DNA of 64,000 nucleotides from NCBI RefSeq assembly GCF_023498005.1, contig NZ_CP097289.1, forward strand, positions 2,046,001-2,110,000, in the 5' to 3' direction. Of the stretch, positions 13,620 to 50,062 are shown piece after piece. Each line of letters opens with the position of its first letter. Positions within the stretch are counted from its first letter, which is position 1. A program made the translations under genes and the position numbers. Below the pieces are notes generated by a model, which was given only the letters and a program-made list of their open reading frames with translations, was not told the origin of the DNA and searched no databases. The DNA comes from Streptomyces durmitorensis (lineage in GTDB: Bacteria; Actinomycetota; Actinomycetes; Streptomycetales; Streptomycetaceae).

Positions 13620-13634
13620 GGTGCGTCGCCTCTC

Positions 13635-15038: not shown

Positions 15039-15089
15039 GATGGGGCGCTCCCTCTCATGCTCGTACGTTCATACCGGCAGGCACGTGAA

Positions 15090-34851: not shown

Positions 34852-36150
34852 TCACTCCTGGGGCGTGGTTTCCTCGCGGATCACGGCCTGGGCGACCTTG
34901 AAGGCGGAGTTCGCCGCGGGGACGCCGCAGTAGACGGCCGCCTGGAGCAGCACTTCCTTGATCTCCTGCGGGGTGAGGCCGTTGCGCAGGGCGGCGCGGG
35001 TGTGGAAGGCCAGCTCGTCGAGGTGGCCGCCCGCGACGAGGGCGGTGAGGGTGACGCAGCTGCGGGAGCGGCGGTCGAGGCCGGGTCTGTTCCAGACCTC
35101 GCCCCACGCGTAGCGCGTGATGAGCTCCTGGAAGTCCGTGGAGAAGTCGTCGGCGGCGGCCAGCGCGCGGTCGACGTGCGCGTCGCCGAGCACCTCGCGG
35201 CGGACCTTGATCCCCGCGTCGTACGGGTCGGGGCGTCCGCCGCCCACGGCCTCGGGCTGCTCCATGGGCCCGATCTCGGCGACGGGGAAGACGGGCGGCG
35301 GCGGGGCGAGGATCGGCTTGACGGGCGGTGCGCTGATCGCCGCGTGCGTCCCGGTGGCGTCGGTCGCGAGCTGCCAGGCGGTGGAGAAGTGGCGTACGAG
35401 AAGGTCGGTGACGGCGGCGGGCTGCTCGACGGGGGCGAGGTGGGAGGCCCCCGGCACGACGGCCAGGCGGGCGTCCGGTATCCCCGCGACGAGGGTGCGG
35501 GCCTCGCCCTGCCCGGTGACCTGGTCCTCCGACCCGACCAGGACGAGGGCAGGCACGCTGATCCGGTTCAGCTCGGCGCGCACGTCGAAGGCGGCGAGGG
35601 CCTCGCAGGCGGCGATGTAGCAGCCGGGGTCGGTCGTACGCACCATCTGTACGGCCCAGTCGGTGATCGCGGGCTGCGCGGCGGCGAAGCCGGGCGTGAA
35701 CCAGCGCTCGGGGGACGTACGCGCGATGGGGTCGAGTCCGTTGCTCCGCACGATGACGCCGCGCTGGCGGAACTCGTCCGCGCTGCCGAAGCGCGGCGAC
35801 GCGGATATCAGCGCCAGGGACGCGACGCGCTGCGGGTGCCGCAGAGCGAGCTCGGCGCCGATCGCGCCGCCGAACGCGCAGCCCGCGTAGCCGAAGCGCT
35901 GCACGCCGACCTCGTCGAGGGTGGCGAGGAGCCGCTGGGCGAGCTCGCCGACGGAGCCGCAGGGGTGTGCGGGGGCGCCGCCGTGCCCGGGCATGTCGAA
36001 GCGGAACACCCGCCACTGCTTGACCAGCTCGGGCACCTGCCGGTCCCACATGTGCCATGTGGTACCCAGTGAGGGACCCAAGATCAGGACAGGGGCGTCT
36101 TCTGGCCCGTCAAAGCGGTATTGCAGGGTGCTCTTCGGTGTCTCACTCAC
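34852..36150 (-). CDS. PcaD-PcaC fusion: enol-lactonase-like plus carboxymuconolactone decarboxylase-like
   Basis: The 432-residue protein (GTG 36150) joins an alpha/beta hydrolase (residues about 5-265, YRFDGPEDAPVLILGPSLGTTWHMW) to a PcaC-like domain (about 310-425, RREVLGDAHVDRALAAADDFS to LHTRA-like end). Such PcaL fusions perform two steps of protocatechuate breakdown in actinobacteria. Two oddities stand out. The nucleophile elbow is GYAGCAFGG with Cys91 where Ser is expected, and no other pca genes lie nearby. A different substrate is therefore possible. An alternative GTG lies 24 bases upstream. Confidence 0.85.
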   Translation of the reverse strand: MSETPKSTLQYRFDGPEDAPVLILGPSLGTTWHMWDRQVPELVKQWRVFRFDMPGHGGAPAHPCGSVGELAQRLLATLDEVGVQRFGYAGCAFGGAIGAELALRHPQRVASLALISASPRFGSADEFRQRGVIVRSNGLDPIARTSPERWFTPGFAAAQPAITDWAVQMVRTTDPGCYIAACEALAAFDVRAELNRISVPALVLVGSEDQVTGQGEARTLVAGIPDARLAVVPGASHLAPVEQPAAVTDLLVRHFSTAWQLATDATGTHAAISAPPVKPILAPPPPVFPVAEIGPMEQPEAVGGGRPDPYDAGIKVRREVLGDAHVDRALAAADDFSTDFQELITRYAWGEVWNRPGLDRRSRSCVTLTALVAGGHLDELAFHTRAALRNGLTPQEIKEVLLQAAVYCGVPAANSAFKVAQAVIREETTPQE

Positions 36151-36182
36151 TCGCCTGAGCCTCTCATCTGTCACGACAGCCC

Positions 36183-36480
36183 CTATAACAGGGGGTCGCT
36201 GGATACCGTTTTGACCAGGTTGGATACCTCGCGGGCGGCATATCGCTTGAGGCACCTGATGATCTCACGACGGGTCTTGCCCTCCCAGGTGCGGCGTTCG
36301 TAGTACGCCTGCATGCGCGGGTCGTGGCGCAGCCTAGTGAACCCCAGGGCGGCGAACGATGCCTCGGTGTGCACGCGCTCGGGATTGTCCCCCATGGTGA
36401 TCAGGAGCGTTACGGCGCTGTCCGGGCCGATACTCACCGGTGCGAGCAGCTGCGGGGCGTGAATCCGGGAGTGGCTGACA
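36183..36480 (-). pseudogene. IS110-family transposase relic with internal deletion
   Basis: The frame reads APQLLAPVSIGPDSAVTLLITMGDNPERVHTEASFAALGF, then TRLRHDPRMQAYYERRTWEGKTRREIIRCLKRYAAREV. Both parts match the C-terminal half of IS110 transposases. The expected middle segment (the G-x-x-P and RGGDRxAN region) is missing, so the gene cannot be functional. The N-terminal catalytic DEDD half is also absent. Confidence 0.75.
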
Positions 36481-36696
36481 GGTTCAGCCGGAATGACACG
36501 AGCCGCGGTTTGTAGATGCTTGTGGCGCGGAATAGTGCACCTTCCGACGTCCATCTATTGTCGAAACTGTTCACGTTGTACGACAGCGTCCAGCGGTCCC
36601 CTGCCGGCGTCGGCCTCCAACGCGGCGGTCCTTCGCGTGGCGAGCACAACCGAGCAGCGCCGCACGGCGAAAGCGGGCTCTGGGTCAGCTCAGTAC

Positions 36697-37146
36697 TCAG
36701 TACTTCGTCAACCGTCCGGGCCGCTCGAAGTAGAAGCCTCTGGGCCCCTGCAGTTCACCACTCTCCCCAGGTGGTCCAGCAGTCGCGACACCCTTGACCA
36801 GCGCGCTGCCGTTGAGGACGCGCTTGCCGTCGAACCGGTGGCCGGTGAAGCCGAACATATGGGTTCCCCGGCCCAGCCGCAGCAGCCCCAAGGTGACGTG
36901 CGTCGCCGAGAGGGGCACACCGTCGGACACCAGTGGGATGGACAGGAAGAGGTTCTTCTTCTCGCGCGCCGCGGGACCGGTCCACAGCGCAACGGTCACC
37001 CGAGGCTCGTCCAGGTCTGGGATGCACCCGCGCACGTAGTACGGCTTGGCGACCGGGGTGGTGGTGTAGTGCCACAGCGCATCCGCGACGGCGCACTGCG
37101 TACGGAACAGCACGTCTGGGGAGACGGTGGCTAGCGGTTGACCCAT
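36697..37146 (-). CDS. Unrecognised 149-residue protein in the IS-relic zone
   Basis: From ATG 37146 it reads MGQPLATVSPDVLFRTQCAV, with later segments PYYVRGCIPDLDEPRVTVALWTGPAAREKKNLFLSIP shortened here to its ordered strands and HVTLGLLRLGRGTHMFGFTGH. The alternation of short hydrophobic strands suggests a beta-rich soluble fold. No signal peptide or membrane segment is visible. It is surrounded by transposase relics and has lower GC than its neighbours, so recent transfer is likely. No function can be assigned. Confidence 0.5.
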   Translation of the reverse strand: MGQPLATVSPDVLFRTQCAVADALWHYTTTPVAKPYYVRGCIPDLDEPRVTVALWTGPAAREKKNLFLSIPLVSDGVPLSATHVTLGLLRLGRGTHMFGFTGHRFDGKRVLNGSALVKGVATAGPPGESGELQGPRGFYFERPGRLTKY

Positions 37147-37394
37147 GACGGGCACTTCTGCACCCCTCTGCAGTAGGCGGTGATCACACCGATCTAGCGG
37201 CAAAGCCGAGAGCGGCGAGAGCCGCGGCGGCGGCGATAGTTCTTCTCAACGTTCCTCCTGGGCAAGACGCTGGTCACATCAGGGTTGCCCGTCAGAACGA
37301 GTGGCTATGAGCAAGGACTGACTAATCACCCGGTTGAGGGCGTGTCGGCCCTTTGCCTACTGGCGCACTCACCACCGCGCAGCTACTCCTGCCG

Positions 37395-37560
37395 AGACAC
37401 GGACGGACCAAGGCCGCGGGCAAAATGCTGAGTTCGTGGGTGAAGTACTCGCCGAACCGCTTGAGGTTCTCCGTAATCACTGGGGAGACCTGGGCCAGGT
37501 TGTCCGGCTCGATCTTCCAGCCCTCGCGTGGTGCCCCTGAGCCTCGCGTCACTTGAAGCA
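37395..37560 (-). pseudogene. Probable Tn3-family transposase C-terminal relic
   Basis: One frame reads DNLAQVSPVITENLKRFGEYFTHEL, close to the SP-x-x-x-x-x-I-x-RFG-x-Y end of Tn3-type transposases as I remember it. The rest of the 594-base stretch 37147-37740 shows no gene and is comparatively AT-rich. Confidence 0.4.
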
Positions 37561-37740
37561 GAAGGAGGCGGGGCATGCGGCAGCCAGCACGGGTACGCCC
37601 AGCCGCCACCCGAAAGGTCGAGCACACTGCTCCTGGACAGTCGCGCGCCGGGTCCCCCCTTTCACGCAGGCCCCCGTCGGCACCATCAAACGGATCCCCT
37701 CAAATCACATGCGCTGTCACACCACGCCCCTACGAGCGGG

Positions 37741-38060
37741 GTACTGGCTGTAACTGTATGACCAGGTGGGAGACCTCTCGGGCCGCATAGCGCTTAAGGC
37801 GACGGACGATTTCTCGGCGGGTCTTACGGGGCTGACCCCGCGCAAGGCGGCGAAGGACGACTCACTGTCCAGGCGTTCCGCGTTGTCCCCACCGTGATCC
37901 GCTGAGCGACGGCCGTGTCCGGACCCATCCCCACCACGGCCAGCAGCTGCGGGCAGGAGCTTCCACTAGCCGTAGCCGGGCCAGACGAGCGTCCATATCC
38001 CGGATCCGCCCGGAGACCTGGCCGATCCGGCAAGTCGGCAGGCCAACACCGTCCCGCAAT
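37741..38060 (-). pseudogene. Second IS110-family transposase relic, frameshifted
   Basis: Read in successive frames the region gives GQVSGRIRDMDARLARL, AQLLAVVGMGPDTAVAQRITVG, DNAERLDSESSFAALRGVSP and KTRREIVRRLKRYAAREVSHLV. The order matches IS110 transposases, but at least two frameshifts and a loss after FAALRGVSP interrupt it. It is related to, but not identical with, the relic at 36.2-36.5 kb. Confidence 0.72.
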
Positions 38061-38083
38061 TACGCCGCGCCTGCGCGATGCCC

Positions 38084-39286
38084 TCACGCCACGCTGGGCA
38101 GCACGTGGGTCCGGCCGATGGCGCCGAGCCAGGCGGCCGAGGGCTTGGGGGTACGGACGAAGGTCTCGCGGTCTACGGCGATCAGGCCGAAGGTCGGCTC
38201 GTAGCGGCCCCATTCGTAGTTGTCCAGGGCGCTCCAATGGAAGTAGCCACGGACGTCGATGCCGTCGTTCATGGCGTCGGCAAGGGACTCCAGGGCGCCG
38301 GTGGTGTACTGGATGCGGCGGGAGTCGTCGGCTGTCGCGATGCCGTTCTCGGTGACGATCAGCGGGGTGCCGCCGGTGACGGAAGCGCTGTGGCGCACGG
38401 CATCGCCCAGTGCCTGGGGGTAGTACTCCCATCCCATGAGGGTGCGTTCCGCGTCCTCGGGCACGGGCAGTCGGCCGTTCGGGCCGATGAGCGTGCGGGT
38501 GTACGCCTGCACCCCGAGCCAGTCGTCGCCGCGGGCAGCTTCGAGGAACACGTCCACACGTGGGTGCCGGAATACCGCGGCGACCTCCTCTGATCCGGGC
38601 AGGGCCTTGCACACCAGGTTGGCGACGGACCAGCCGGTGCTTACGTGTGGGGCAAGGGACTTGACCGTTTCGACGGCTCGGGTGTGCGCCCGTACCAGAG
38701 CGTCGGTGGTGGCCTCGTCCGGAGCCGGCGGGCCCTCGGCGAAATTCACGGCCTGTCCGGAGGCAAGCGCGGCCTGTGCGGCAGCCATGACGGCGACGAT
38801 GTTGGGTTCGTTGATGGTGCAGACGTGCGCCACGTCCGTGGCGAAGATGGGTGCGGCCGCGGTGAGGTAGCGGGCGAACAGTTCGTCCGATCCGGTGGCG
38901 GCCCAGCCGCCGCGCCGGGCGAACCACAGGGGTGTCGTGAAGTGGTGCAAGGTCACCATGGGCCGTAGACCGCGTTCACGGGCGCCCTCGACCATGCGCC
39001 GGTAGTGGGCGATCGCGGCGCGGGAGAACTCACCCGGGGCCGGTTCGATGCGGGCCCATTCAATGCTGAACCGGTAGTCGGTGAAGCCGAGTTCGGCCAG
39101 CAGGTCCATGTCCTCGCGCCAGCGGTGGTAGCTGTCGCAGGCGTCACCGCTGGGCTCTTTGACGTAGGGGATGTTGCCGTGCTCGAACTCCCACCAGTCG
39201 CTGTTGGTGTTGCCGCCCTCGATCTGGTGGGCGGCGGTGGAGGTGCCCCACAGGAATCCATCGGGCAGACGTCGTGCATGCGTCAT
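38084..39286 (-). CDS. GH1 beta-glycosidase
   Basis: This 400-residue cytoplasmic enzyme would hydrolyse beta-glucosides or related glycosides. The family is shown by RLPDGFLWGTSTAAHQIEG, RFSIEWARIEP, the acid/base in CTINEPNIV (Glu160) and the nucleophile in IVTENGIATAD (Glu313), ending RGYFHWSALDNYEWG. It is slightly short for GH1 (usually 430-480). No signal peptide is present, so the substrate must be imported. It is the last gene of the minus-strand PadR/sulfatase/transporter group, 177 bases behind the transporter. Confidence 0.93.
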   Translation of the reverse strand: MTHARRLPDGFLWGTSTAAHQIEGGNTNSDWWEFEHGNIPYVKEPSGDACDSYHRWREDMDLLAELGFTDYRFSIEWARIEPAPGEFSRAAIAHYRRMVEGARERGLRPMVTLHHFTTPLWFARRGGWAATGSDELFARYLTAAAPIFATDVAHVCTINEPNIVAVMAAAQAALASGQAVNFAEGPPAPDEATTDALVRAHTRAVETVKSLAPHVSTGWSVANLVCKALPGSEEVAAVFRHPRVDVFLEAARGDDWLGVQAYTRTLIGPNGRLPVPEDAERTLMGWEYYPQALGDAVRHSASVTGGTPLIVTENGIATADDSRRIQYTTGALESLADAMNDGIDVRGYFHWSALDNYEWGRYEPTFGLIAVDRETFVRTPKPSAAWLGAIGRTHVLPSVA

Positions 39287-39463
39287 GAGTTGCTTCTCTC
39301 TTGTGTGTGGCCACGTGCGTGACCAGTCGCGGCAAGTCGGCAGAACCGGCGGTTGGGGGGGACAGGCGGCAGGCACGCGCGGATACCGAAGGCAGCGCCT
39401 CCCGTGGGCTGCTGGAGGCTGGCCCGATCCCGCTTCGGGCGGCGCCTGCGTGGGCCTGAGGGG

Positions 39464-40807
39464 TCAGGTGGTGGGGTCGAGGGCCTGTTCGCGGCGCGCG
39501 TGCAGTTCCCTCTGGACTCGGGCCACGTCCTCGGCGTATGAGCGGTGAAGCAGCGTCAGGAAGATGCCGTTGACCAGCATGAGGATGACGAGCGCCCACA
39601 GGAAGACGGTGCGGAGCCCGATCGCGTCGCCGAGGAAGCCGGCGCCGAGGCTGAAGGAGGCCCAGGCGATCGCCTCGAAGACGGAGACGTAGATGGCGAA
39701 GGCGGCGCCGCGCAGCTCGGGCGGGGTGATGGCCATGACCATGGGGCGATTGACACTCGGGTTGACGCCCTGGGCCGCGCCCATGAGGGCGAAGAAGACA
39801 CCGAACAGGGCAATGCTCCCGTAGTCGAACTGGGTCCCGAAGTAGGCGAAGCCCGCAAAGGCGAACTGGGCCGTCTGAAGGACGGTGACCAGGCCGTGGC
39901 GAGGGCTGCGCCGGGTGGCCCAGTCCGCCCCGAAGCCGCCCAGGAGTGTGCCCAGGAAGTAGCCGACACCGAAGGGAAGCAGCACGATAGACGCCTTCTG
40001 CGTGCTGAAGCCGTACACATCCACCAGGTATACGACGCCGAAGGTGCCCACCAGGAGATGTCCCGACAGGAGGCGGGAGACCAGGAGGACGACCAGGCTG
40101 CGGATCTTGAGGAGCGAGAGTGCCTTGGTCCAGGTGAGCTTCGAGTGAGCGTTGCGGGTGGCGCGGTCGAGGTCGGCGAGCTGTTCCTCGGACGCACCCC
40201 GTCCCGGGTCGCGGAACCACATCCACATGGCGAGGCCGAGCAGGATGTTGAAGGTGCCGATGCCCCACAGGCCCCAGCGCCAGCCCTCTTCGATGCCCGC
40301 CAGCTGGCCCTTGAGCGGGCCGATCACCGCGCTCACCAGTGAGACGGCGCCGTAGACCACGCCGATCGCGCGGCCGCGGGTCGATCCCCCGAAGAGGTCG
40401 CCGATGAGTTCGGTGATGATGGGGTGCGCGGCCGCGTAGCCCGCGGCCAGGATGGTGTAGAGGATGACGAGTTGGGTGAAGTTCTGTGCGAAGCCCGCGG
40501 CCACGCCCCACACACCCCAGAGCCCGGTGGCCACAACGAGGACGCTCTTGCGCGACCAGCGCTCCGCCACCCACACCCACAGGGGCCCGGTGAAGGCACC
40601 CGCTATCTTCCCGGCGGCGGTCAGTATGCCCAGCGCGCCCAGCGAGACCCCGAGGGACTGCCGGATCAGCGGAAAGAGGCTGCTGACCAGGCTCGCCTCG
40701 GTGCTGTCGACCAGCATGGTGCCGCCGAGCAGGGACAACTGCCGCCAGCGCCCTTTCACCTGCACCTCGGGTTTGGGCATGACGGGGCTCTGGCTAAGCT
40801 CGGGCAT
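39464..40807 (-). CDS. MFS transporter of the sulfatase gene group
   Basis: The 447-residue protein has twelve hydrophobic segments. Conserved major-facilitator parts include GPLWVWVAERWSRKSVLVVATGLWG (motif A-like) and DLFGGSTRGRAIGVVYG. The family resembles organic-anion and sugar-conjugate transporters. It would import the sulfated or desulfated glycoside, given its place between sulfatase and GH1 genes. I start it at ATG 40807; a strong hairpin separates it from the sulfatase gene. Confidence 0.88.
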   Translation of the reverse strand: MPELSQSPVMPKPEVQVKGRWRQLSLLGGTMLVDSTEASLVSSLFPLIRQSLGVSLGALGILTAAGKIAGAFTGPLWVWVAERWSRKSVLVVATGLWGVWGVAAGFAQNFTQLVILYTILAAGYAAAHPIITELIGDLFGGSTRGRAIGVVYGAVSLVSAVIGPLKGQLAGIEEGWRWGLWGIGTFNILLGLAMWMWFRDPGRGASEEQLADLDRATRNAHSKLTWTKALSLLKIRSLVVLLVSRLLSGHLLVGTFGVVYLVDVYGFSTQKASIVLLPFGVGYFLGTLLGGFGADWATRRSPRHGLVTVLQTAQFAFAGFAYFGTQFDYGSIALFGVFFALMGAAQGVNPSVNRPMVMAITPPELRGAAFAIYVSVFEAIAWASFSLGAGFLGDAIGLRTVFLWALVILMLVNGIFLTLLHRSYAEDVARVQRELHARREQALDPTT

Positions 40808-40869
40808 CGGGCCGTCTCTTTTCTCTGTGACTTTCTTCGCGGGAGGTCTGCGGGAAGGGGAGGTCGTAC

Positions 40870-40901
40870 GCCGGTGACGGGGCTGCAACCCCGTCACCGG
40901 C
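40870..40901 (-). terminator. Perfect 13-bp hairpin between sulfatase and transporter genes
   Basis: GCCGGTGACGGGG and CCCCGTCACCGGC pair perfectly around the loop CTGCAA. It lies in the 113-base gap inside what otherwise looks like one operon. It could end most transcripts after the sulfatase or act as an RNA processing and stability element. Confidence 0.7.
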
Positions 40902-40920
40902 TCAAGTGGCCGCAGTGGTC

Positions 40921-42684
40921 TCAGAGTTGGGCGAGTTCCTCGGCGACCCGGTGGAGACTCGGGGGCGGGAACAGCGCACCCGCCATGGCGGCGACGTCGA
41001 TGAGCGGTGTCGCGCCGATCATCTGCAGCAGCTCCGAGTCGGCGACACCGGGCAGGTGTGTGCGCAGCACCTCGACGGCGACCGGATCGGAGATCAGTGC
41101 CTTGAGAGGGGTGCGCAGCGAGAGGCGGCCCTGTGGATAGTCCTCGGCCCGCGGCAGCGGCTGCGCGGCACGCTCCGCCTGCTCACGCTGGGAGCGGACC
41201 AGCAGGTGCTGCTCCGTGACCGGCCCAAGGCCGGGCAGACCGAGGCGTTCGTACTGGCTGGGCGGCGCGTCGTTGGCCCGCATGAGCTCCACCAGCAGGG
41301 TGGCCATGCGCAGTTCGGCGTCGTCGTCGATCAGCGGAGTGCTCTGGTCGGGGTCGGTCTCCAGGTCGAACAAGAGCGTGCCGTGGTGGTAAGGGTTGAC
41401 GAGGGTGCGGCCCGGCACACGCAGGGTGCGCACGTTCTTGGTGAAGCCGAACGGCTCGGCCAGTTCCAGGTCCACGAGTTCGGCGGGTGAGAAGCGGCCC
41501 CGCATGTGGGTCGGCATCAGGGTGTGTTCGTACAGGGGCGCGTTGTCGGGCGAGGCGGGCGCCCGCATGTAGACGTGGCGGCCGTCCGTGACGTTGACGT
41601 GTCCGCCGTGGATACCGAACAGGCCCGCCTCCCGCACCGGAGTGTCGTCGGCGACCGGGAGCGGCGCGCCCTGCATGTCGGTGGGCCGGTCGACGCCGAA
41701 GAACTCCAGCAAGGTCGGCGCCACGTCCACGGTCTGCACCAGCGCCGAACGCCGCTGGCCCGCGGCGCGGTTGCGCGGGTCCCAGGCGAACAGCGGCAGG
41801 TGGACCAGTTCGTTGAACCATGGCTGGACGCTCTTGCCCCACCAGCCCTTCTCCCCCAGCAGCAGCCCGTGGTCGGTGTTGACGATCAGCAGAGTGTCGT
41901 CCCACAGGTCCAGCTCGTCCATGGTGTCCAGGACCCGGCCGAGCGAGTGGTCGCACATCGACAGGAGCGCCCCGTACTCGAAGCGGGCGTGCTCCACCTG
42001 GCCGTCGGATTCGACCACGCGCTTGTAGTCGGGCCAGTCGAAGTGCGGGCCGTCGTAGTCGTGGGGGTAGAGGTCCTTGTAGGGCTGGTGGCTGAAGAAC
42101 GGCTCGTGCGGGTCGAAGGTCTCGATCTGCACGAACCACCGGTCGGCGTCCTGGTTCGTCCGAACGAACTCCAGGCCCGCGTCGAAGGTGAGGGTCTGCG
42201 GGTGCCGGTCCTCCGTCGCCATGTGGGGCCGGTTCACCCAGTCCTGGCGGTAGGAGCCGAACCGCATCCGCTTCAGGTCGTCGGGTATCTCCGGGTCGGA
42301 CACCTGGCCCTTCCAGGGGTCGCCCTCCTGGCCGCGGAAGAACTCCCAGGTGTTGTAGCGGCCGTGATAGGTGGCGCCGCCGTCCTCCCAGTAGTGCGGG
42401 TGGTCGCTGACGAGGTGGGTGTAGACGCCGTTCTGCTTGAGGAGTTCGGGCATCGAGTCGTCGAACGGCTCAAGCGGCCCCCAGCTGCGGTGCAGGAAGT
42501 TGTGCCGCCCGGTGTGGATCTCGCGGCGGGCCGGCATACAGGGCATCGATCCGGCGTACGCGTTGTCGAAGGTGACCGCCCGATCCGCGAGGCGGGCGAA
42601 GTTCGGTGCGTGGGTCCAGTCGCCTCCGTACGGCGGCAGCATGTGCCGGTTGAGACTGTCGAACATCACCATGATCGCCCTCAT
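40921..42684 (-). CDS. Cys-type formylglycine-dependent sulfatase
   Basis: This 587-residue enzyme hydrolyses a sulfate ester. The start MRAIMVMFDSLNRHMLPPYG carries the first metal-binding Asp. AGSMPCMPARREIHTG contains the CxPxR motif whose Cys49 is converted to formylglycine, and the later NTDHGLLLGEKGWWGK segment has the Asp-His metal ligands and Lys. There is no signal peptide, so it acts in the cytoplasm. Its ATG overlaps the PadR stop (ATGA), and the activating enzyme is encoded just across the promoter region. The exact sulfatase subfamily and substrate are not determined; a sulfated sugar or glycoside fits the neighbours. Confidence 0.93.
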   Translation of the reverse strand: MRAIMVMFDSLNRHMLPPYGGDWTHAPNFARLADRAVTFDNAYAGSMPCMPARREIHTGRHNFLHRSWGPLEPFDDSMPELLKQNGVYTHLVSDHPHYWEDGGATYHGRYNTWEFFRGQEGDPWKGQVSDPEIPDDLKRMRFGSYRQDWVNRPHMATEDRHPQTLTFDAGLEFVRTNQDADRWFVQIETFDPHEPFFSHQPYKDLYPHDYDGPHFDWPDYKRVVESDGQVEHARFEYGALLSMCDHSLGRVLDTMDELDLWDDTLLIVNTDHGLLLGEKGWWGKSVQPWFNELVHLPLFAWDPRNRAAGQRRSALVQTVDVAPTLLEFFGVDRPTDMQGAPLPVADDTPVREAGLFGIHGGHVNVTDGRHVYMRAPASPDNAPLYEHTLMPTHMRGRFSPAELVDLELAEPFGFTKNVRTLRVPGRTLVNPYHHGTLLFDLETDPDQSTPLIDDDAELRMATLLVELMRANDAPPSQYERLGLPGLGPVTEQHLLVRSQREQAERAAQPLPRAEDYPQGRLSLRTPLKALISDPVAVEVLRTHLPGVADSELLQMIGATPLIDVAAMAGALFPPPSLHRVAEELAQL

Positions 42685-43250
42685 CGGACGGGTTTCCCTT
42701 CTGTCAGGTTGCGCAAAGTCCGCTCCAGCCAGGCGACCCAGCGGTCCATGGCGGCCGCGCCGAGCGCGTGGAGGGCATCGTGGACCTGTAGGTCGAGGTC
42801 CTGGTCGAGGCCGGGCGCCGGGTCCTCGTAGATCAAGGTGCGGTCGCGGTCCCGGTTCTCGGCGATCTGCGCGCGGCGGTGGTCGAGCTCGGTCCCGACG
42901 ATCCGGATCGCGGCGTCCTTGTCGAGCGGCGCCGCGACGCTGAACCGCGCGAGGAAGTCGATCTCCTGGAAGCGGCTGGGCGGCTCGTAGGGCGAGCGCA
43001 CCCATTCCAGGAGGACCTCGCGCCCGCCGGGCGTGAGCCGGTACACCTTGGCGTCCGGGCGGCCTTCGCGCGCGTCGACCTCGTGGCGCACCCAGCCGTC
43101 GACCTCCATCTGCCCGAGCTTGCGGTAGATCTGGCTGTGGTGGGCTCGCGCCCACAGGAACTGCCCCTCGACCTCGAGCCACTTGCGCAGGTCGTACCCG
43201 CTGTAGGGGCGACGGGCCAGCAGGCCGAGCAGGACGTACTCGAACTTCAC
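42681..43250 (-). CDS. PadR-family regulator of the sulfatase group
   Basis: From GTG 43250 the protein has 189 residues: VKFEYVLLGLLARRPYSGYDLRKWLE is the PadR winged helix start, HSQIYRKLGQMEVDGWV the recognition region, and the C-terminal half a long-helix dimerisation domain (IRIVGTELDHRRAQIAENRDRD). Earlier starts in frame are possible but would run into the operator. It is translationally coupled to the sulfatase. A perfect 16-bp palindrome lies 50 bases upstream, the likely binding site, through which it would also control the divergent formylglycine-generating enzyme gene. Confidence 0.88.
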   Translation of the reverse strand: MKFEYVLLGLLARRPYSGYDLRKWLEVEGQFLWARAHHSQIYRKLGQMEVDGWVRHEVDAREGRPDAKVYRLTPGGREVLLEWVRSPYEPPSRFQEIDFLARFSVAAPLDKDAAIRIVGTELDHRRAQIAENRDRDRTLIYEDPAPGLDQDLDLQVHDALHALGAAAMDRWVAWLERTLRNLTEGKPVR

Positions 43251-43300
43251 GGACGTGGACTCCCTTGTGCGGAAGCGGTGTGCGATCTTGCTATGTGCAG

Positions 43301-43327
43301 TCTCACCTAGGTGAGAATTCATATACT
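43301..43327. promoter_or_regulatory. PadR-type palindromic operator with divergent promoters
   Basis: TCTCACCTAGGTGAGA (43301-43316) is a perfect 16-bp palindrome. On the plus strand TATACT (43322-43327) lies seven bases before the ATG at 43334, which predicts a leaderless message for the formylglycine-generating enzyme. On the minus strand a weak TTCTCA / CATAGC pair straddles the palindrome and would serve the PadR operon. A protein on this site would block both directions. Confidence 0.7.
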
Positions 43328-43333
43328 CGCGTC

Positions 43334-44302
43334 ATGGAGACGTCAATGGGATGTTGCGTACCGGAAACCCGAATCTGCTCCACCGGCCCGCTGCCCACGC
43401 CGGCCCGCGTGCCGCCCGCGCACCCCCAAGTCAGGCTCCCCGGCGGCGAGTTCTTGATGGGTGACTCCTTCGGCGAGGGCTATCCGACAGACGGTGAACA
43501 GCCGGTGCACGCCGTACGCGTCACCCCGTTCGCCATCGACGTCACGACGGTGACCGTGGCGATGTTCCGGGCCTTCGTCGACGACACCGCGTACCTGACC
43601 GCCGCCGAACGGGAGGGCAGTTCCGCCGTGTTCCACCTGGCCGTCGCCGCCGAGCGGGCCGACATCATCGGGAACAGCCCGGCCGCCCCCTGGTGGCTGG
43701 ACGTACGGGGAGCCGACTGGCGCCACCCCCTTGGCCCGCTGTCCACCGCGGAACCGGACCACCCAGCGGTGCACGTGGCCTGGGACGACGCCATGGCGTA
43801 CTGCGCGTGGGCGGGGCGCCGCCTGCCGACCGAGGCCGAGTGGGAGTACGCGGCCCGCGGCGGACTCGCAGGCCGCCGCTTCGCATGGGGAGACGAACTC
43901 ACCCCCGACGGGCGGTGGTTGTGCAACATCTGGCAGGGCGCGTTCCCGTACGCCAACACCGGTGCGGACGGCTGGCTGGCGACCGCACCGGTCCGCACGT
44001 ACCCGCCCAACGGCCACGGCCTGTACGAAGTCGCCGGGAACGTCTGGGAGTGGTGCGCGGACTGGTTCGCCACCGACTACTACGCCCACTCCCCCGCCGC
44101 CGACCCCAAGGGGCCGCGGAGCGGCGAGCGCCGTGTCATGCGCGGCGGCTCCTACCTGTGCCATCACACCTACTGCCACCGCTACCGCGTGGCCGCCCGC
44201 TCGGCCAACACGCCCGCCTCCAGCAGCGGAAACTGCGGGTTCCGGACGGTCGCCGCGCGAGGGGTCACCCCGGGGGTCAGGAGGACTCCTTGCTCCCGGT
44301 GA
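43334..44302 (+). CDS. Formylglycine-generating enzyme (sulfatase-activating)
   Basis: This 322-residue copper oxidase converts the CxPxR cysteine of sulfatases to formylglycine. The FGE-sulfatase fold is shown by LPGGEFLMGDSFGEGYPTDGE, VTPFAIDVTTVTVAMFRAFVDDT, GRRLPTEAEWEYAARGG and GNVWEWCADWF. The two active cysteines are in RGGSYLCHHTYCHRY (Cys276 and Cys281, five apart as in known enzymes). The start ATG appears leaderless. Its 3' end overlaps the convergent GH3 gene by 26 bases. It faces the PadR/sulfatase operon, its obvious partner. Confidence 0.94.
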   Translation: METSMGCCVPETRICSTGPLPTPARVPPAHPQVRLPGGEFLMGDSFGEGYPTDGEQPVHAVRVTPFAIDVTTVTVAMFRAFVDDTAYLTAAEREGSSAVFHLAVAAERADIIGNSPAAPWWLDVRGADWRHPLGPLSTAEPDHPAVHVAWDDAMAYCAWAGRRLPTEAEWEYAARGGLAGRRFAWGDELTPDGRWLCNIWQGAFPYANTGADGWLATAPVRTYPPNGHGLYEVAGNVWEWCADWFATDYYAHSPAADPKGPRSGERRVMRGGSYLCHHTYCHRYRVAARSANTPASSSGNCGFRTVAARGVTPGVRRTPCSR

Positions 44303-46583
44303 CCGCGGCTGACCGCACCGTCTCGACCAGTTCCTGTACGTCGTCGAAGCTCAGGGGGACGATCGGGAGCCCCGCGAGCTGGCTGAGGCGCATGTTGGCC
44401 ACCATCCGGTGGCGGGGGCTTCCCTCCTTGGGGTAGGTGTCGCCCATGGACTGCCGGACGCGGCACAGCAGTGCCTCGATGGCCGGGCCGCCCGCGGGGT
44501 GGGCGAGCCATACTTCGACGGTCGAGTCGGCGTCCGGCTGCTCGGCGTAGGCGTCGCCTGTGACCGGGACCGTCGCGCTCAGCCGGATGTCGCGGCTGGA
44601 GGCCCCGACGTCGATGCGGTGGTCGGCGTTTTCGACGAGCCAGGTGTCGGCTGCGGTGTCGAAATAGGCGAGGTCGGCGCGGGCGACGCGGACGGTGACG
44701 TTCTGGGTCTCGCCAGGCGTGAGCCACACGGTGGCGAAACCCTTCAACTCCCTCACTGGGCGTCGGACCCGCTCCCCCGGCGCGGCCACGTACACCTGGA
44801 CGACCTCGTGCCCGGTCCGCTCCCCCGTGTTGGTGACCGCCACCGTGACGTCGAGCCCGCCTGCGTCCGAGGTGACCCGCAGGTCCGCGTAGTCGAAGGT
44901 GGTGTACGAGAGGCCGTGCCCGAAGGGGAAGGAGACCGCCATGTCGCGAGCGTCGTAGTGGCGATAGCCGACGAACAGGCCCTCGCGGTACGCGACATGA
45001 CCGTTCTCGCCAGGCCAGGCCAGGTAGGCCGGGGTGTCGGCGAGCCGCTGCGGGATCGTCTCCGCGAGACGCCCCGACGGGTTCGCCCGACCGAACAGCA
45101 GATCCGCGGTGGCCGATCCTCCGGCCTGACCGAGCAGCCAGCCCTCCAGAACAGCCGGTACGTCGTCGATCCACCCGGCCAGGCGGACCACGCCGCCGTT
45201 GGCGAGGACCACGACGATGTTCGGGTTCACCGCACTGACGGCGGCGAGCAACCGGGTTTGCTCTTCCGGGAGTTCGATGTGCTCGCGGTCATAGCCCTCG
45301 GACTCCAGGCTCGGCGGAAGACCGAGGAAGAGCACGGCCACGTCCGCGCTCTCGGCCGCGCGGACGGCCTCCTCGTGCAGCGCGGCCGCGTCGGCGTCCG
45401 GAGCATCGACGGGGAAGCCGGGAGCAAAGGAGATGTGCGCCGCGGGCGCGGCCTCACGGACCGAGGTCAATGCGTCGTCGAGCCGGGTCGGGGTCACGCG
45501 CGAGCTGCCCTCACCCTGATAGCGCGGTGTGCGTGCGAACTCACCGATGACCGCGATGCGTTGTGGCGCGGCGGGGTCCAGGGGGAGCAGCGCGCCATCG
45601 TTCTTGAGCAGGACCGCCCCGCGCGTGGCGACCTCGCGGGCCAGATCGTGGTGGGCGGCCGGGTCGAAGCAGGCGTCGGGGCGCGCGTGCGCGGCCGCCT
45701 TGCGGGCAACTGCCACGATCCGGGCGGCGCTGCGGTCCAGTGCTTCCTCGGAGAGTTCACCGGATTCCACGGCCGCGACGGCGCGGGCGGGGCCGGCGCC
45801 GGACGAGGACGGCATCTCCAGGTCGAGCCCGGCGGCGAGGGCCCGCGCCCGGTCGACGACGGCTCCCCAGTCGGAGACGACCACGCCGTCGAATCCCCAT
45901 TCATCCCGCAGGACGTCCGTCAGCAGCCACGGATTCTGTGACGCGTGCACGCCGTTGACCCGGTTGTACGCGCACATGACGGTCCAGGGCCGGGCTTCGG
46001 TCACCACGCGGCGGAAGGCCGGGAGATAGATCTCGCGCAGGGCCCGTACGTCGATGTCCGCGCTGACCGACATGCGGCCGGTCTCCTGGTTGTTCGCGGC
46101 GAAATGCTTGACCGAGGCCCCGACACCATGCGCCTGCAGTCCGTTGACCCACGCCGCTCCCAACACGCCACTGAGCAATGGGTCTTCGGAGAAGTACTCG
46201 AAATTGCGCCCGCACAGCGGGCTGCGCTTGATGTTGACGCCCGGTCCGAGCAGCACGTGCACGCCGTGTGCGAGGCACTCGCGGGCCAGTGCGCCGCCGA
46301 CCCGCCCCGCGAGGTCGGTGTCCCAGGTGCAGGCCAGGGTGACGGCCGGCGGGAAGCAGGTGGCCGGGGCGCTGGCGTTGATGCCCAGGTGGTCGGCCTG
46401 GGTGTCGTTCTGCAGCCGCAGTCCGTGGGGGCCGTCCGAGAGGCGGAACGCCGGGATCCCCGCGTCGGGGAGTGCGGTGGTGTGCCACCAGCCTGCGCCG
46501 GTGGTCAGGGCGGCCTTCTCGGCGAGGCTCAGCCGGGCGACCGTCTCGCCGGGCGTCTGCGCCGGCTGATTCGGGTTGTTCAT
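44277..46583 (-). CDS. GH3 beta-glycosidase
   Basis: This 768-residue cytoplasmic enzyme has the GH3 N-terminal barrel (RLSLAEKAALTTGAGWWHT, RLSDGPHGLRLQ, VKHFAANNQETGR) with nucleophile Asp238 in GVVVSDWGAVV. The second domain contains LPLDPAAPQRIAVIGEFA, and a fibronectin III-like end follows (VAVTNTGERTGHEVVQVYV). It probably removes glucose or xylose residues from an imported glycoside. It follows the second transporter on the same strand after 64 bases. No signal peptide is present. Confidence 0.95.
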   Translation of the reverse strand: MNNPNQPAQTPGETVARLSLAEKAALTTGAGWWHTTALPDAGIPAFRLSDGPHGLRLQNDTQADHLGINASAPATCFPPAVTLACTWDTDLAGRVGGALARECLAHGVHVLLGPGVNIKRSPLCGRNFEYFSEDPLLSGVLGAAWVNGLQAHGVGASVKHFAANNQETGRMSVSADIDVRALREIYLPAFRRVVTEARPWTVMCAYNRVNGVHASQNPWLLTDVLRDEWGFDGVVVSDWGAVVDRARALAAGLDLEMPSSSGAGPARAVAAVESGELSEEALDRSAARIVAVARKAAAHARPDACFDPAAHHDLAREVATRGAVLLKNDGALLPLDPAAPQRIAVIGEFARTPRYQGEGSSRVTPTRLDDALTSVREAAPAAHISFAPGFPVDAPDADAAALHEEAVRAAESADVAVLFLGLPPSLESEGYDREHIELPEEQTRLLAAVSAVNPNIVVVLANGGVVRLAGWIDDVPAVLEGWLLGQAGGSATADLLFGRANPSGRLAETIPQRLADTPAYLAWPGENGHVAYREGLFVGYRHYDARDMAVSFPFGHGLSYTTFDYADLRVTSDAGGLDVTVAVTNTGERTGHEVVQVYVAAPGERVRRPVRELKGFATVWLTPGETQNVTVRVARADLAYFDTAADTWLVENADHRIDVGASSRDIRLSATVPVTGDAYAEQPDADSTVEVWLAHPAGGPAIEALLCRVRQSMGDTYPKEGSPRHRMVANMRLSQLAGLPIVPLSFDDVQELVETVRSAAVTGSKESS

Positions 46584-46647
46584 GCTTTCTCCTTGGAGCG
46601 TGGTGCGGGTTGATGCGCGGTGCGGAGGTTGCCGTGGTCGGCTGCGG

Positions 46648-47937
46648 TCATCGGACGCTCTTCACGCGCAAGACCGCCACAGCACCGAGCAGCGCGAAGG
46701 CCATGGCCAGGGGGAAGAGCGTCCGGTACCCGCCGAGCCACAGGACGACTGCTCCGGCAATGGCGGGGGCAAGGACCTGCGGCAGGGTGGCCGCGACGTT
46801 CACGACGCCGAGGTCGCGAGCGAAGGACCGCTCGGACGGCAGCACTTGAGAGATGAGCGCGGTGTCCACGCCCTGGAAGCAGCCGAAGCCGATGCCCACC
46901 AGGAAGGCCATTGCGGTCATTCCGGTCATGGTGGGGACGGCGAAGGGGATGAGCATGGCGCATCCGATGAGGGAAGCCGAAGCCACCACGAACACCTTGC
47001 GCCGGCCGAGCCGGTCCGAGAGGGGTCCGCTGATGACAGCGGCCGGAAGCAGCCCCGCCACGGCGCTCAGCGCGAGAGCGGGGACGTGGTCGATGGCCTC
47101 GTCGTGCAGGCCGATGTAGTCCTGGAGGATGTAGAGCTTGTAGCCGATGACCAGGAAGTACGACAGGTTGGTGCACAGCCTGCCGATGAACACCCAGAAG
47201 AAGTCGGGGTGCCCCCGCGGGTTCGGCAACAGCCCGCCCAGGAACTCACGCACCCGGAAGGGCTCTTGGGGCTCGCTCTGGCTCGGGCGGTCCGGGTTGA
47301 GGGTCACGAGGACGACCGCCAGGGTCGTCGCGAGCGCGGCGAGCACTCCGTACGCCGTGGTGATCCGGTCGTCGAGGGCGGCGGCGAAGACCTGGCCGAG
47401 CAGCGAGCCGCACATGGCTCCGAGGCCGAAGACGGTGGAGAACAGGCCCCGCTTCTGTGGCGGCACCCGGTCGGGCATGACGGCCGAGAGCGGGCCCATC
47501 GCGAAGTTGTAGCCGATCTGTACCAGGCACCAGAGGGCCAGCGTCGCCGGTATGGAGTGTGTGAACGCCATGCCGATCAGGGCCAGGCCGCCGGTGGCCG
47601 TGCCGGCCACGATCCAGGGCCCGCGTCTCCCGAAGCGGCTGCGGGTCCGGTCCGAGAGGGCTCCCGCGACGGGCTGGGCGACCATCGCGGCGAGCGCGCC
47701 CACCGTGGTGACGATCGCGAGCGTGCCGACCTTCGCTTCCTCGCCGACCGTGCGCTGGATCTGGAGGGCGAGGAGGGTGCCGGGGACGGCTCCCCACACG
47801 AGGGCGATGCCGAGGTTGGCGGGGCCGATGCATGCCATGAGGCGCCGCAGCGCCCGACCGTCGACCAGCGGGGCCGCTCCCGCCGGATCGGCGGGCAGCA
47901 CGGAGGGAGCACGGAGCTCCCTAGGGGGTCTCGCCAT
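46648..47937 (-). CDS. MFS sugar/glycoside transporter
   Basis: The 429-residue protein has twelve hydrophobic segments. The pattern VAQPVAGALSDRTRSRFGRRGPWI is typical of sucrose/maltose-type (SLC45-like and GPH-like) carriers, and GPLSDRLGRRKVFVVASA repeats it in the second half. It likely supplies the GH3 enzyme encoded downstream. Expression should respond to the divergent TetR protein, since a 21-bp palindrome overlaps its promoter. Confidence 0.88.
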   Translation of the reverse strand: MARPPRELRAPSVLPADPAGAAPLVDGRALRRLMACIGPANLGIALVWGAVPGTLLALQIQRTVGEEAKVGTLAIVTTVGALAAMVAQPVAGALSDRTRSRFGRRGPWIVAGTATGGLALIGMAFTHSIPATLALWCLVQIGYNFAMGPLSAVMPDRVPPQKRGLFSTVFGLGAMCGSLLGQVFAAALDDRITTAYGVLAALATTLAVVLVTLNPDRPSQSEPQEPFRVREFLGGLLPNPRGHPDFFWVFIGRLCTNLSYFLVIGYKLYILQDYIGLHDEAIDHVPALALSAVAGLLPAAVISGPLSDRLGRRKVFVVASASLIGCAMLIPFAVPTMTGMTAMAFLVGIGFGCFQGVDTALISQVLPSERSFARDLGVVNVAATLPQVLAPAIAGAVVLWLGGYRTLFPLAMAFALLGAVAVLRVKSVR

Positions 47938-47977
47938 CGGGACCTTCTTTCGGTGGGCCGCACCTGCGACTGGCGAG

Positions 47978-48008
47978 AAACAGTACGGCGTACTGTTTTT
48001 GCGGGCAA
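47978..48008 (-). promoter_or_regulatory. Transporter promoter overlapped by a 21-bp TetR-type palindrome
   Basis: AAACAGTACG-G-CGTACTGTTT is perfect (47978-47998). On the minus strand TTGCCC (48008-48003) and TACTGT (47985-47980) lie 17 bases apart and form a good promoter whose -10 box is inside the palindrome. Bound repressor would block the transporter and GH3 genes. Confidence 0.72.
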
Positions 48009-48049
48009 GGCTTTGCGCAGGTGAAATGTCGGCGGAATAGGGTGGTCGC

Positions 48050-48667
48050 GTGAAATCCAGAAGCTCCTACCCCAAGGGGGTCGCCAAGCGCGAGGAGATC
48101 CTCAAGGTCACCCTTGAGATCTTCGGCCGCGAGGGCGAGCGGAACACCACGCTGCGGACGGTCGCCAAGGAGAGCGGCATCAGCCTGACCGGGCTCATGC
48201 ACTACTTCGCGTCCAAGGACCACCTGCTGACCGAGGTCCTGCGCGCCAGCGACCGAGCGGCCGAGGCCCGTTTCCACGGCCCGGACGCCGTGCGTGATCC
48301 CGGCGAGTTCCTGGCCCGGGCCTTGACGGCGAACGCCGCCAACTCCGCCCGCGTACGCCTCTACATCACCCTCGCCGCGGCCTCCACCAACCCGGCGCAC
48401 CCGGCGCACGCATACTTCAAGGAACGCTTCGCCCTGCTTCGAGCGACCATCGCCGAGCATCTCGCGGCCGAGCAGCGGGCGGGCCGGGGGGACCCCGACC
48501 TTGACCCGGACTTCACCGCCTCCGCCCTCGTCGCGGCGTCCGACGGCATCCAACTCCAGTGGCTGAGCGACCCCGACATCGACATGGCAGACCAGGTCCG
48601 CCGCGTCTGGTGCATGCTCGTGGCGGCGCCCGGCCCACCGGGCCCCGCCGCATCACGCGATACGTAG
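48050..48667 (+). CDS. TetR-family repressor of the GH3 unit
   Basis: The 205-residue protein has the N-terminal DNA-binding domain KREEILKVTLEIFGREGERNTTLRTVAKESGISLTGLMHYFASKDHLL, followed by an all-helical ligand domain. It starts at GTG 48050, 50 bases behind the 21-bp palindrome, and is divergent from the transporter. The ligand is probably a sugar or aglycone from the imported glycoside. Confidence 0.88.
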   Translation: MKSRSSYPKGVAKREEILKVTLEIFGREGERNTTLRTVAKESGISLTGLMHYFASKDHLLTEVLRASDRAAEARFHGPDAVRDPGEFLARALTANAANSARVRLYITLAAASTNPAHPAHAYFKERFALLRATIAEHLAAEQRAGRGDPDLDPDFTASALVAASDGIQLQWLSDPDIDMADQVRRVWCMLVAAPGPPGPAASRDT

Positions 48668-48671
48668 CGCC

Positions 48672-49244
48672 TTAGGCGTGGCCCGCCACGTCGTGACCCA
48701 TGACCGCGCAGGCATAGGCGTGCAGGACGGTGATCACTTCGGCGCGGGCGCGGCGGCCCGCGAGGACTTCCATCTGGTAGCCGTCCTCCATGGCGACGAA
48801 GCTGGCGGCGAGCAGGCGCGGCGGATCCTGCAACGCGAAGTGCCCCTGAGCCTGGCCCAGCACCAGGATCCCTGAGTAGACAGCGATCTGACGTTCCGTC
48901 AGAGCACTGTCGAGGGCCGCAGCCTTGGCGTCGCGCAGGCAGCGCGGCCAGTACTCGAAGAGCAGCCGCGTCAGCGCGTCGTCGGGCCCACTGGCGACCC
49001 CCTTGTCGATACAGGCTCCGAGTTGATCGCGGGCGTCGGCGAAGTGGTGCGCGGCCTCTTCGCGTTGCCGGCTGTAGCGCTCGATGGCCTGCTGATAGGT
49101 CACGTGAACCAGCGCGTCCAGGTCGCCGTAGTAGAGCACCGCGGCGGGCGTGACCCCCGCCTCCTCCGCGACATCGCGCAGCCGCAGACCCTCGAGCCCA
49201 CGTGCCACCAGAGCGCGCTCCATGCCGACCACCGCCCGCGCCAC
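48672..49244 (-). CDS. TetR-family regulator with a very short N-terminus
   Basis: The protein reads VARAVVGMERALVARGLEGLRLRDVAEEAGVTPAAVLYYGDLDALVHVTYQQAIERYSRQ, a TetR domain, then a 120-residue helical ligand part. With the GTG at 49244 it has 190 residues, but the usual basic residues before helix 1 are missing. Further upstream the frame runs antisense to the cupin gene. The gene is therefore either intact with an unusual start or has lost its first codons. It faces the cupin gene head-to-head. Confidence 0.72.
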   Translation of the reverse strand: MARAVVGMERALVARGLEGLRLRDVAEEAGVTPAAVLYYGDLDALVHVTYQQAIERYSRQREEAAHHFADARDQLGACIDKGVASGPDDALTRLLFEYWPRCLRDAKAAALDSALTERQIAVYSGILVLGQAQGHFALQDPPRLLAASFVAMEDGYQMEVLAGRRARAEVITVLHAYACAVMGHDVAGHA

Positions 49245-49506
49245 TTTGCAGAACGAAGACGAGCGGGTTCGGGTCATCCGCTGGGACTTCGAACCCCAGG
49301 AGAGCACCGGCCATCACCTGCACGAGCACGACTATGTCGTCGTACCCGTCACCGACGGGCAAACCGACGTCATCACTCCCGACGGCACCGTCACCACCTC
49401 GCAACTGCGGGCCGGCCGCTCCTACGCGCGCCCCGCCGGCGGCGAACACGAAGTCGTCAACACCGGCACTGCCCCGCTGACCTTCATCGAGATCGAACTG
49501 AAGTGA
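49222..49506 (+). CDS. Small single-domain cupin
   Basis: From ATG 49222 the 94-residue protein reads LQNEDERVRVIRWDFEPQESTGHHLHEHDYVVVPVTDGQ, with the metal-binding GHHLHEHDY motif of cupins, and PAGGEHEVVNTGTAPLTFIEIE at the end. The function could be a dioxygenase, isomerase or sugar-binding role. Its first 23 bases overlap the start of the divergent TetR gene, so there is no room for a normal promoter between them. Confidence 0.78.
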   Translation: MPTTARATLQNEDERVRVIRWDFEPQESTGHHLHEHDYVVVPVTDGQTDVITPDGTVTTSQLRAGRSYARPAGGEHEVVNTGTAPLTFIEIELK

Positions 49507-50062
49507 CGGCACCTGAAGTCAACGAAATCCGCTGAACGAACGGCGGCCCCGCGCGGTTACAGTACGGCGATGACCAGCGCATACCGCCCGGCCCGCGCCT
49601 CGGCGCACGACGGACGACTGCCTCCTGGTCTACGACAAGGTCCCGTCCCAAGCCCCCGGCCCGGTGGTCCCGCACTGGCCGGCAAGATGTCGACCCGCAG
49701 CTCTGGGGCGACTGGGGATCGGCCGACCTCAACTCGGCGACGGGCACAGTCGTGTCGTTGCTACACACGCGCACTTCACGTCGACGGCATCAAGCTCTCA
49801 CCCCTGGACGCTGAACGAGAGCGCGCGCTGCGCGTACGGAACCGACAGGCATACGTTGGCTGACGCTCAGCTCGCTCTGTCTACGGCCCTGGCGTGGCCC
49901 AGTCACACCCACTTCGATCCTCATTGGAGGCACTGAGGGTTCGTTCGGTGGTTCCCTGGTCGGGATCTCTGCCCGAAGGTAGCCGCTGTGTGACGACAGG
50001 ACTACGGTGGGAGGACTGGCCCCAGCCCCCGGCTCCGCGAAAATGACCGAGCAAGGTGTGTC
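49507..50062. other. Gene-poor stretch
   Basis: I see no convincing gene. Frames here are short and lack the usual third-position bias. A plus-strand piece near 49615-49660 (DCLLVYDKVPSQ) may be a gene fragment I cannot identify. Confidence 0.5.

Follow-up and report, generated by a model that had tools for sequence, protein, structure and literature searches.

In the glycosaminoglycan loci of Bacteroides thetaiotaomicron, as an excerpt of PMC6994673 describes them, locally controlled sulfatases and glycosidases degrade a sulfated sugar compound one after the other. The beta-1,2-glucan cluster of Streptomyces griseus (SGR_2422-2427; excerpted text of PMC12369401) holds a GH1 glycosidase of the same subfamily as the one treated here. 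We analysed a window of 64,000 nucleotides (the whole stretch of contig NZ_CP097289.1 from 2,046,001 to 2,110,000) from Streptomyces durmitorensis, whose genome of 9.86 Mb is rated 100% complete. An eight-gene locus in it (38084-48667) encodes GH1, a major facilitator superfamily (MFS) carrier, a cytoplasmic Cys-type sulfatase, a PadR regulator, a formylglycine-generating enzyme (FGE), GH3, a second MFS carrier and a TetR regulator. Like the Bacteroides loci, it places sulfatase and glycosidases under apparent local control; unlike them, its sulfatase and both glycosidases look cytoplasmic, its carriers are MFS proteins, its regulators are PadR and TetR, and an FGE lies within the locus. A literature search limited to open-licence PMC papers found no earlier description of it.

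This locus probably serves the catabolism of a small sulfated glycoside, as a cassette that is inducible and moves horizontally. The same sulfatase family is found elsewhere with sugar importers and other glycosidases, so that the best reading is of a sulfated glycoside used in the cytosol. Pfam matches and motifs confirm all parts that the first-pass annotation had named, at its coordinates. They are listed below together with the inverted repeat, which it had missed, and a second TetR-like gene.

38084-39286, minus strand: GH1 beta-glucosidase-like enzyme (PF00232), last gene of the PadR run
39464-40807, minus strand: MFS carrier A (MFS-A; PF07690), ATG start MPELS
40870-40901: inverted repeat of 32 bases (13-base arms and 6-base loop) separating the sulfatase and MFS-A genes, kept in most relatives with this junction
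40921-42684, minus strand: cytoplasmic Cys-type sulfatase (PF00884), motif CMPAR
42681-43250, minus strand: PadR-family regulator (PF03551), GTG start
43301-43316: palindrome TCTCACCTAGGTGAGA, by its position a candidate PadR operator common to the PadR run and FGE
43334-44302, plus strand: FGE (PF03781, cysteine pair)
44277-46583, minus strand: GH3 beta-glycosidase with Fn3-like domain (PF00933, PF01915, PF14310)
46648-47937, minus strand: MFS carrier B (MFS-B; PF07690 and PF13347), GPH-like
47978-47998: palindrome AAACAGTACGGCGTACTGTTT, an inverted repeat and candidate TetR operator
48050-48667, plus strand: TetR-family regulator (PF00440)
48672-49307, minus strand: second TetR-like gene, an optional neighbour (PF00440, 22.1 bits, just below the cut-off of 24)

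The minus-strand run reads PadR-sulfatase-MFS-A-GH1, the PadR and sulfatase genes overlapping as ATGA. FGE is divergent from PadR and overlaps GH3 tail to tail by 26 bases.

Recurrence of the gene set and its plasmid copies

Relatives of the sulfatase came from a scan of GTDB, of which we used the best 80 of 151 loci (49 actinobacterial and 31 others), with 60 bits as the lowest score at which a gene counted as a member. As a control we took 40 stretches of 20 kb at arbitrarily chosen positions in 11 Streptomyces genomes. The gene grouping is not by chance. Among the 49 actinobacterial loci, which are not independent because some are close relatives and some of which end at contig ends, relatives of PadR occur in 38, of FGE in 35, of MFS-A in 30 and of GH3 in 20 (PadR, FGE and GH3 all within 10 kb), followed by TetR (12), MFS-B (10), GH1 (8) and the second TetR (2). 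Each listed partner family is absent from the control (0/40). FGE and GH3 stand together in 17 of the 49; a second sulfatase family is present in 16 and a third in 13, and neither occurs in the control. Three actinobacterial loci (L047, L056, L059) combine three sulfatases with FGE, PadR, MFS and GH3. All 14 actinobacterial loci without a local FGE are in genomes with an FGE elsewhere, and the 31 non-actinobacterial loci have FGE nearby in 6 cases and GH3 in 5.

Outside this core the company of the sulfatase changes. In S. xiaopingdaonensis (L052) it is accompanied by an ATP-binding cassette (ABC) solute-binding protein, GH38 and GH2; in Paenibacillus (L093) by an SBP_bac_5-type ABC system and GH3; in Neorhizobium by an oligopeptide-type ABC system, GH3 and more sulfatases; and on the Rhizobium leguminosarum plasmid pRLG203 by a sugar ABC system and FGE. 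Escherichia coli and Enterobacter have phosphotransferase system (PTS) components IIC and IIB in this place, the Enterobacter stretch also with an anaerobic sulfatase maturase. Around a constant sulfatase the importers and glycosidases vary, which supports intracellular desulfation of an imported sulfated sugar compound.

The first-pass annotation had proposed a search for the gene set in other actinobacteria and named a lack of co-occurrence as a refuting outcome. That outcome did not arise: the genes recur together among the 49 loci, and S. anulatus NBC_01598 has all eight on a linear plasmid, beside an IS3 transposase. A linear plasmid of Streptomyces sp. NBC_01445 encodes GH1, MFS-A, sulfatase, PadR, FGE, GH3 and MFS-B at 88-96% identity; the available stretch ends inside MFS-B, so that TetR is beyond its reach. 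On two further megaplasmids, insertion sequences lie close to a group made up of PadR, FGE, two sulfatases and MFS. In a single draw of 150 Streptomyces genomes, used for all genus counts below, relatives of the sulfatase occur in 16 (E <= 1e-60). Together with the plasmid copies, this distribution marks the locus as an accessory, mobile cassette. It would be a coherent movable module for sulfated-glycoside use in soil actinobacteria, built around a sulfatase family to which no solved structure is closely related.

Proposed pathway and competing explanations

In the proposed pathway, one or both MFS carriers would import the sulfated compound, and the neighbouring FGE would convert the cysteine of CMPAR into formylglycine. 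The matured cytoplasmic sulfatase would then take the sulfate off, and intracellular GH3 and GH1 would cut beta-glycosidic bonds. PadR would repress its own run and the divergent FGE via one shared operator, and TetR would control MFS-B and GH3. The sequence itself shows the gene content, the catalytic motifs, the conserved co-occurrence, the plasmid copies, and that the FGE and both operator words are unique in the genome; we infer the direction of transport, the order of the reactions, the repression, the ligand and the presence of the sulfate on a sugar. The first-pass statement that everything needed for sulfated-glycoside use is present was too strong, but its outline is most likely right in view of the importers and glycosidases of the relatives.

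Judged by its CxPxR core and PF00884 match (120 bits, cut-off 25), the sulfatase is a predicted formylglycine-dependent (type I, S1) enzyme. In an alignment of 55 sequences from actinobacteria, Bacillota, Chloroflexota and one planctomycete metagenome-assembled genome, the core residues C48, M49, P50, A51 and R52 (numbering leaves out the start Met) are unchanged throughout. The N-terminus, MRAIMVMF, has no signal peptide by eye. The nearest relatives, in named Streptomyces, are 93-94% identical; the best PDB match reaches only 90 bits, so no solved relative is close, and the S1 carbohydrate sulfatases 6hhm (S1_7), 6hr5 (S1_25) and 7oz8 (S1_46) are 21-24% identical over the aligned part. We dropped the attempt to read a substrate from the fold: despite a good predicted structure (pLDDT, a model confidence score, of 91.1), the structural and sequence comparisons hardly separate several S1 sugar-sulfatase subfamilies, phosphonate hydrolases and choline sulfatases as the closest match.

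GH1 matches PF00232 with 230 bits (cut-off 22.6) and has no signal peptide by eye. Its closest solved protein is SGR_2426 (PDB 8kap; 589 bits), the S. griseus beta-1,2-glucosidase in which Gln229 is tied to sophorose selectivity in the excerpted account (PMC12369401). The locus enzyme keeps Trp291, but at the Gln229 position (subsite +1) it has Leu, as do the relatives in L025, L030 and L064, with Pro in L036. It probably prefers another aglycone. The other close GH1 of the host genome (L138) is 66% identical, keeps Gln at this position and adjoins LacI, an AXE1 esterase, a solute-binding protein, a permease and PF10091. That region (L146:2714-12184; G000:C1:3643000-3662000) is the likely counterpart of SGR_2422-2427. 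We set beta-1,2-glucan aside as substrate of the locus, since Gln229 is replaced and the genome has a better counterpart. GH3 exceeds the cut-offs of PF00933 (155 bits) and PF01915 (194 bits), also matches PF14310 and has no signal peptide by eye; against the exo-alpha-(1->6)-L-arabinopyranosidase model NF041610 it scores 886 bits, below the cut-off of 1300.

The locus could instead serve mainly for sulfur nutrition, freeing sulfate from organic esters, with the glycosidases merely trimming the product. Much of the sulfur in soil is present as sulfate esters (PMC4267179), and the relatives L047, L056 and L059 have up to three sulfatases. We regard this as unlikely: GH3 is present in 20 of the 49 loci against none of the 40 controls, and the two regulators are of a pathway type, with operator words found once in the genome, rather than belonging to a sulfur regulon.

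PadR and TetR regulators often govern efflux, and both MFS-A and MFS-B weakly match export families. The MFS proteins might accordingly be exporters in a system that detoxifies or inactivates a sulfated or glycosylated natural product. On the other hand, MFS-B resembles the GPH sugar symporters (PF13347; TIGR00792 at 51 bits, below cut-off), and sulfatase relatives from other phyla have ABC and PTS importers as neighbours, which makes detoxification distinctly improbable. In one relative (L064, 5658-6016) MFS-B is apparently a remnant between TetR and GH3, next to an intact TetR palindrome, and this carrier may therefore be dispensable.

Myrosinases are GH1 enzymes, and one bacterial myrosinase belongs to GH3. 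The sulfatase might yield desulfo-glucosinolate, from which GH1 or GH3 would remove thioglucose; insect glucosinolate sulfatases exist (PMC6823443). The multi-sulfatase relatives and the GH38 and GH2 partners point to oligosaccharides rather than to one sulfated aglycone, and we give glucosinolate use very little credence. Hydrolysis of choline sulfate or another small alkyl sulfate, with unrelated glycosidases, is hardly credible either: the sulfatase scores lie far below the cut-offs, at 108.4 bits against 433.45 for the choline-sulfatase model TIGR03417 and at 114 against 900, TetR falls short of the BetI model TIGR03384 (41.5 against 201.3 bits), and domain searches of the locus proteins recognised no betaine genes.

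FGE and sulfatases in the host and the genus

The locus FGE matches PF03781 with 272 bits (cut-off 23.3) and has the active-site cysteine pair, C-x4-C after GGS (GGSYLCHHTYC; GGSYLCHHTYCHRYR). It scores 449 bits against the formylglycine-generating enzyme of PDB 2q17, which we take to be that of S. coelicolor, and 447 bits against 6muj, with the cysteine pair and the surrounding motif kept. Unlike the enzyme of those entries, it is the only FGE found in its genome and stands divergent from a PadR-sulfatase run. Of three PF03781 proteins in the host, it alone has the cysteine pair; the second, without the pair, reads as a putative EgtB, and the third likewise lacks it. Three host sulfatases exceed the PF00884 cut-off, and a fourth match falls below. 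The two unlinked ones are a protein of 755 aa with CSPTR and one of 469 aa with CSPTR and a twin-arginine-like leader. All three Cys-type sulfatases should need a maturase, and one was found.

The first-pass annotation had taken FGE genes to be usually single housekeeping copies and had called this one notable for its local control. The FGE is notable as the only one found rather than as an additional copy, since no other cysteine-pair protein was found in the genome, and an FGE was found in just 55 of the 150 Streptomyces genomes. None was found in the other 95 (E <= 1e-40), which corrects the idea of FGE as a housekeeping gene in this genus. A PF00884 protein is present in 90 (E <= 1e-20). 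All 16 genomes with a relative of the locus sulfatase have an FGE, against 39 of the 134 others (Fisher 2e-8, with relatedness ignored). Seventeen copies of the sulfatase occur in these 16 genomes, with FGE at 2 kb or less in 14 cases, at 10.5 kb in one, and with none on the contig in two. An FGE beside a sulfatase is common in Streptomyces, as at least 42 of the 72 FGE genes in the draw have a listed sulfatase no more than 10 kb away. FGE is accessory in Streptomyces and often next to a sulfatase; the arrangement in S. durmitorensis is typical, not exceptional.

The description of this FGE as dedicated is true of its position and probably of its regulation, but not of its sequence, because the linked FGEs are not one clade. 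A single clade of sulfatase-linked FGEs was rejected (approximately unbiased test, p 5e-70, on 34 linked rows and 21 others) in a tree that left out 8 rows labelled unlinked that are sulfatase-linked or in sulfatase genomes. Linked FGEs do cluster, with 7 label changes against 17.2 in shuffles (0/500 as low). Over 33 loci the mirror-tree correlation between FGE and sulfatase is weak though above zero (rho 0.22, a value reached in 23 of 2000 permutations). With this weak signal and no single clade, we rejected an FGE specialised for the locus sulfatase.

Candidate operators, the inverted repeat and maturation of unlinked sulfatases

Two local regulators likely act at the locus. PadR matches PF03551 with 45.7 bits (cut-off 27) and TetR matches PF00440 with 39.7 bits (cut-off 24). 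The palindrome TCTCACCTAGGTGAGA is located between the PadR and FGE genes and, by this position, PadR would repress FGE. In mononucleotide shuffles, an inverted repeat with an arm of at least 7 arose in 127/5000 for the PadR gap, and one with an arm of at least 9 in 12/5000 for the TetR gap. The genome has no second copy of TCTCACCTAGGTGAGA within 2 mismatches, nor of AAACAGTACGGCGTACTGTTT within 3. Both palindromes reported in the first pass exist, and they fare differently in relatives: AAACAGTACGGCGTACTGTTT is perfect in all four close relatives examined (L025, L026, L030, L064), whereas the palindrome at PadR is not itself conserved, its 12-base core being kept in L025 alone of 20. Most of these 20 relatives show tandem CACATAGG-like words (by eye) at this spot, so the perfect TCTCACCTAGGTGAGA palindrome is a local form. 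A promoter scan of the PadR-FGE gap detected none; by eye, it contains TTGACG-17-TATGAA towards PadR and, six bases ahead of the ATG of FGE, TATACT.

The stretch from the sulfatase stop codon to the MFS-A start codon contains the repeat GCCGGTGACGGGG-6-CCCCGTCACCGGC, which reads the same on either strand. In 22 relatives MFS-A follows the sulfatase in the same orientation; the core is exact in 15 of them and has at most one arm mismatch in 17 (the two additions being L037 and L071); it is missing from L027, L040, L042, L063 and L067. Loci with the repeat at this junction (L025, L026, L028, L029, L031-L035, L037-L039, L041, L064, L065, L068, L071, L260-L262) extend to Nonomuraea (L041) and Planobispora (L068). 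Among 259 loci every exact match is in a locus of this sulfatase, and 800,000 bases of control Streptomyces stretches contain none. In 7.3 Gb of plasmid sequence there are three full-length matches of at least 93% identity, all at the sulfatase/MFS-A junction, as well as weaker matches and a partial 24-base match away from the junction on an S. microflavus plasmid. Full-length phage matches reach 85% at most.

Folding of the junction includes the repeat hairpin (z -2.8). A scan for intrinsic terminators found none on the operon strand, so that a terminator is not supported, and an Rfam search of 36000-50000 (E <= 5) gave no match at 40870-40901. We also rejected the repeat as part of the MFS-A protein: its frame is open into MFS in only 8 of 16 sequences, meets a stop within 31 codons in 3 and leaves the MFS frame in 5 more (by eye). 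With half of the sequences in frame and half out, the repeat is not simply coding. Its loops vary and its arms hardly do; the few arm changes (L028, L037, L038, L039, L068, L071) are not compensatory, which is weak evidence for constraint on sequence rather than on structure.

The only FGE of the host stands beside a pathway-specific PadR, and a sulfated glycoside would therefore decide whether the two unlinked Cys-type sulfatases, one of them apparently exported, are matured. We put this forward tentatively, jointly with the suggestion that the repeat may be a new cis-acting element, either a protein-bound palindrome or an RNA hairpin setting the ratio of sulfatase to carrier; the combination is rather doubtful. 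If it were true, a mobile catabolic cassette would switch sulfatase activity of the whole cell, and its gain would supply FGE-less hosts with a maturase. It raises the testable questions of whether sulfatase maturation is regulated and of what matures the conserved, apparently exported Cys-type sulfatase where FGE is not recognised.

That apparently exported CSPTR sulfatase (L106:6582-7991, minus strand; G000), which the first-pass annotation had not noticed, has relatives in 53 of the 150 Streptomyces genomes (E <= 1e-100), of which 25 have no FGE match at E <= 1e-40. All 30 of its loci examined keep CSPTR, including 11 in genomes without an FGE match. We read all 39 PF03781 matches in the 25 genomes: the cysteine pair is absent in 24, and in the remaining one (G039) a C-terminal FGE remnant carries it. 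A loose cysteine pattern also matched six other loci, taken as out-of-frame noise. A radical-SAM sulfatase maturase exceeds its cut-off in 1 of the 150 genomes (G025) and in none of the 25; because 106 of the 150 hold relatives below cut-off, a divergent maturase may exist. Mycobacterium tuberculosis is reported to keep residual sulfatase activity without FGE, which a review (PMC3141025) assigns to other sulfatase types. The sole anaerobic sulfatase maturase over cut-off in the 150 genomes (L177; G025:C1:1558941-1560101) has a sulfatase (G025:C1:1557261-1558556) at a distance of about 0.4 kb.

Two further gene groups were observed elsewhere in the window. Near the locus, 34852-36255 (minus strand) encodes an alpha/beta hydrolase domain fused to a carboxymuconolactone decarboxylase domain, as in proteins of the beta-ketoadipate pathway. 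At 12603-17212 (minus strand), genes for a luciferase-like monooxygenase, an amidohydrolase and a carbon-nitrogen hydrolase look like a pyrimidine or hydantoin degradation cluster.

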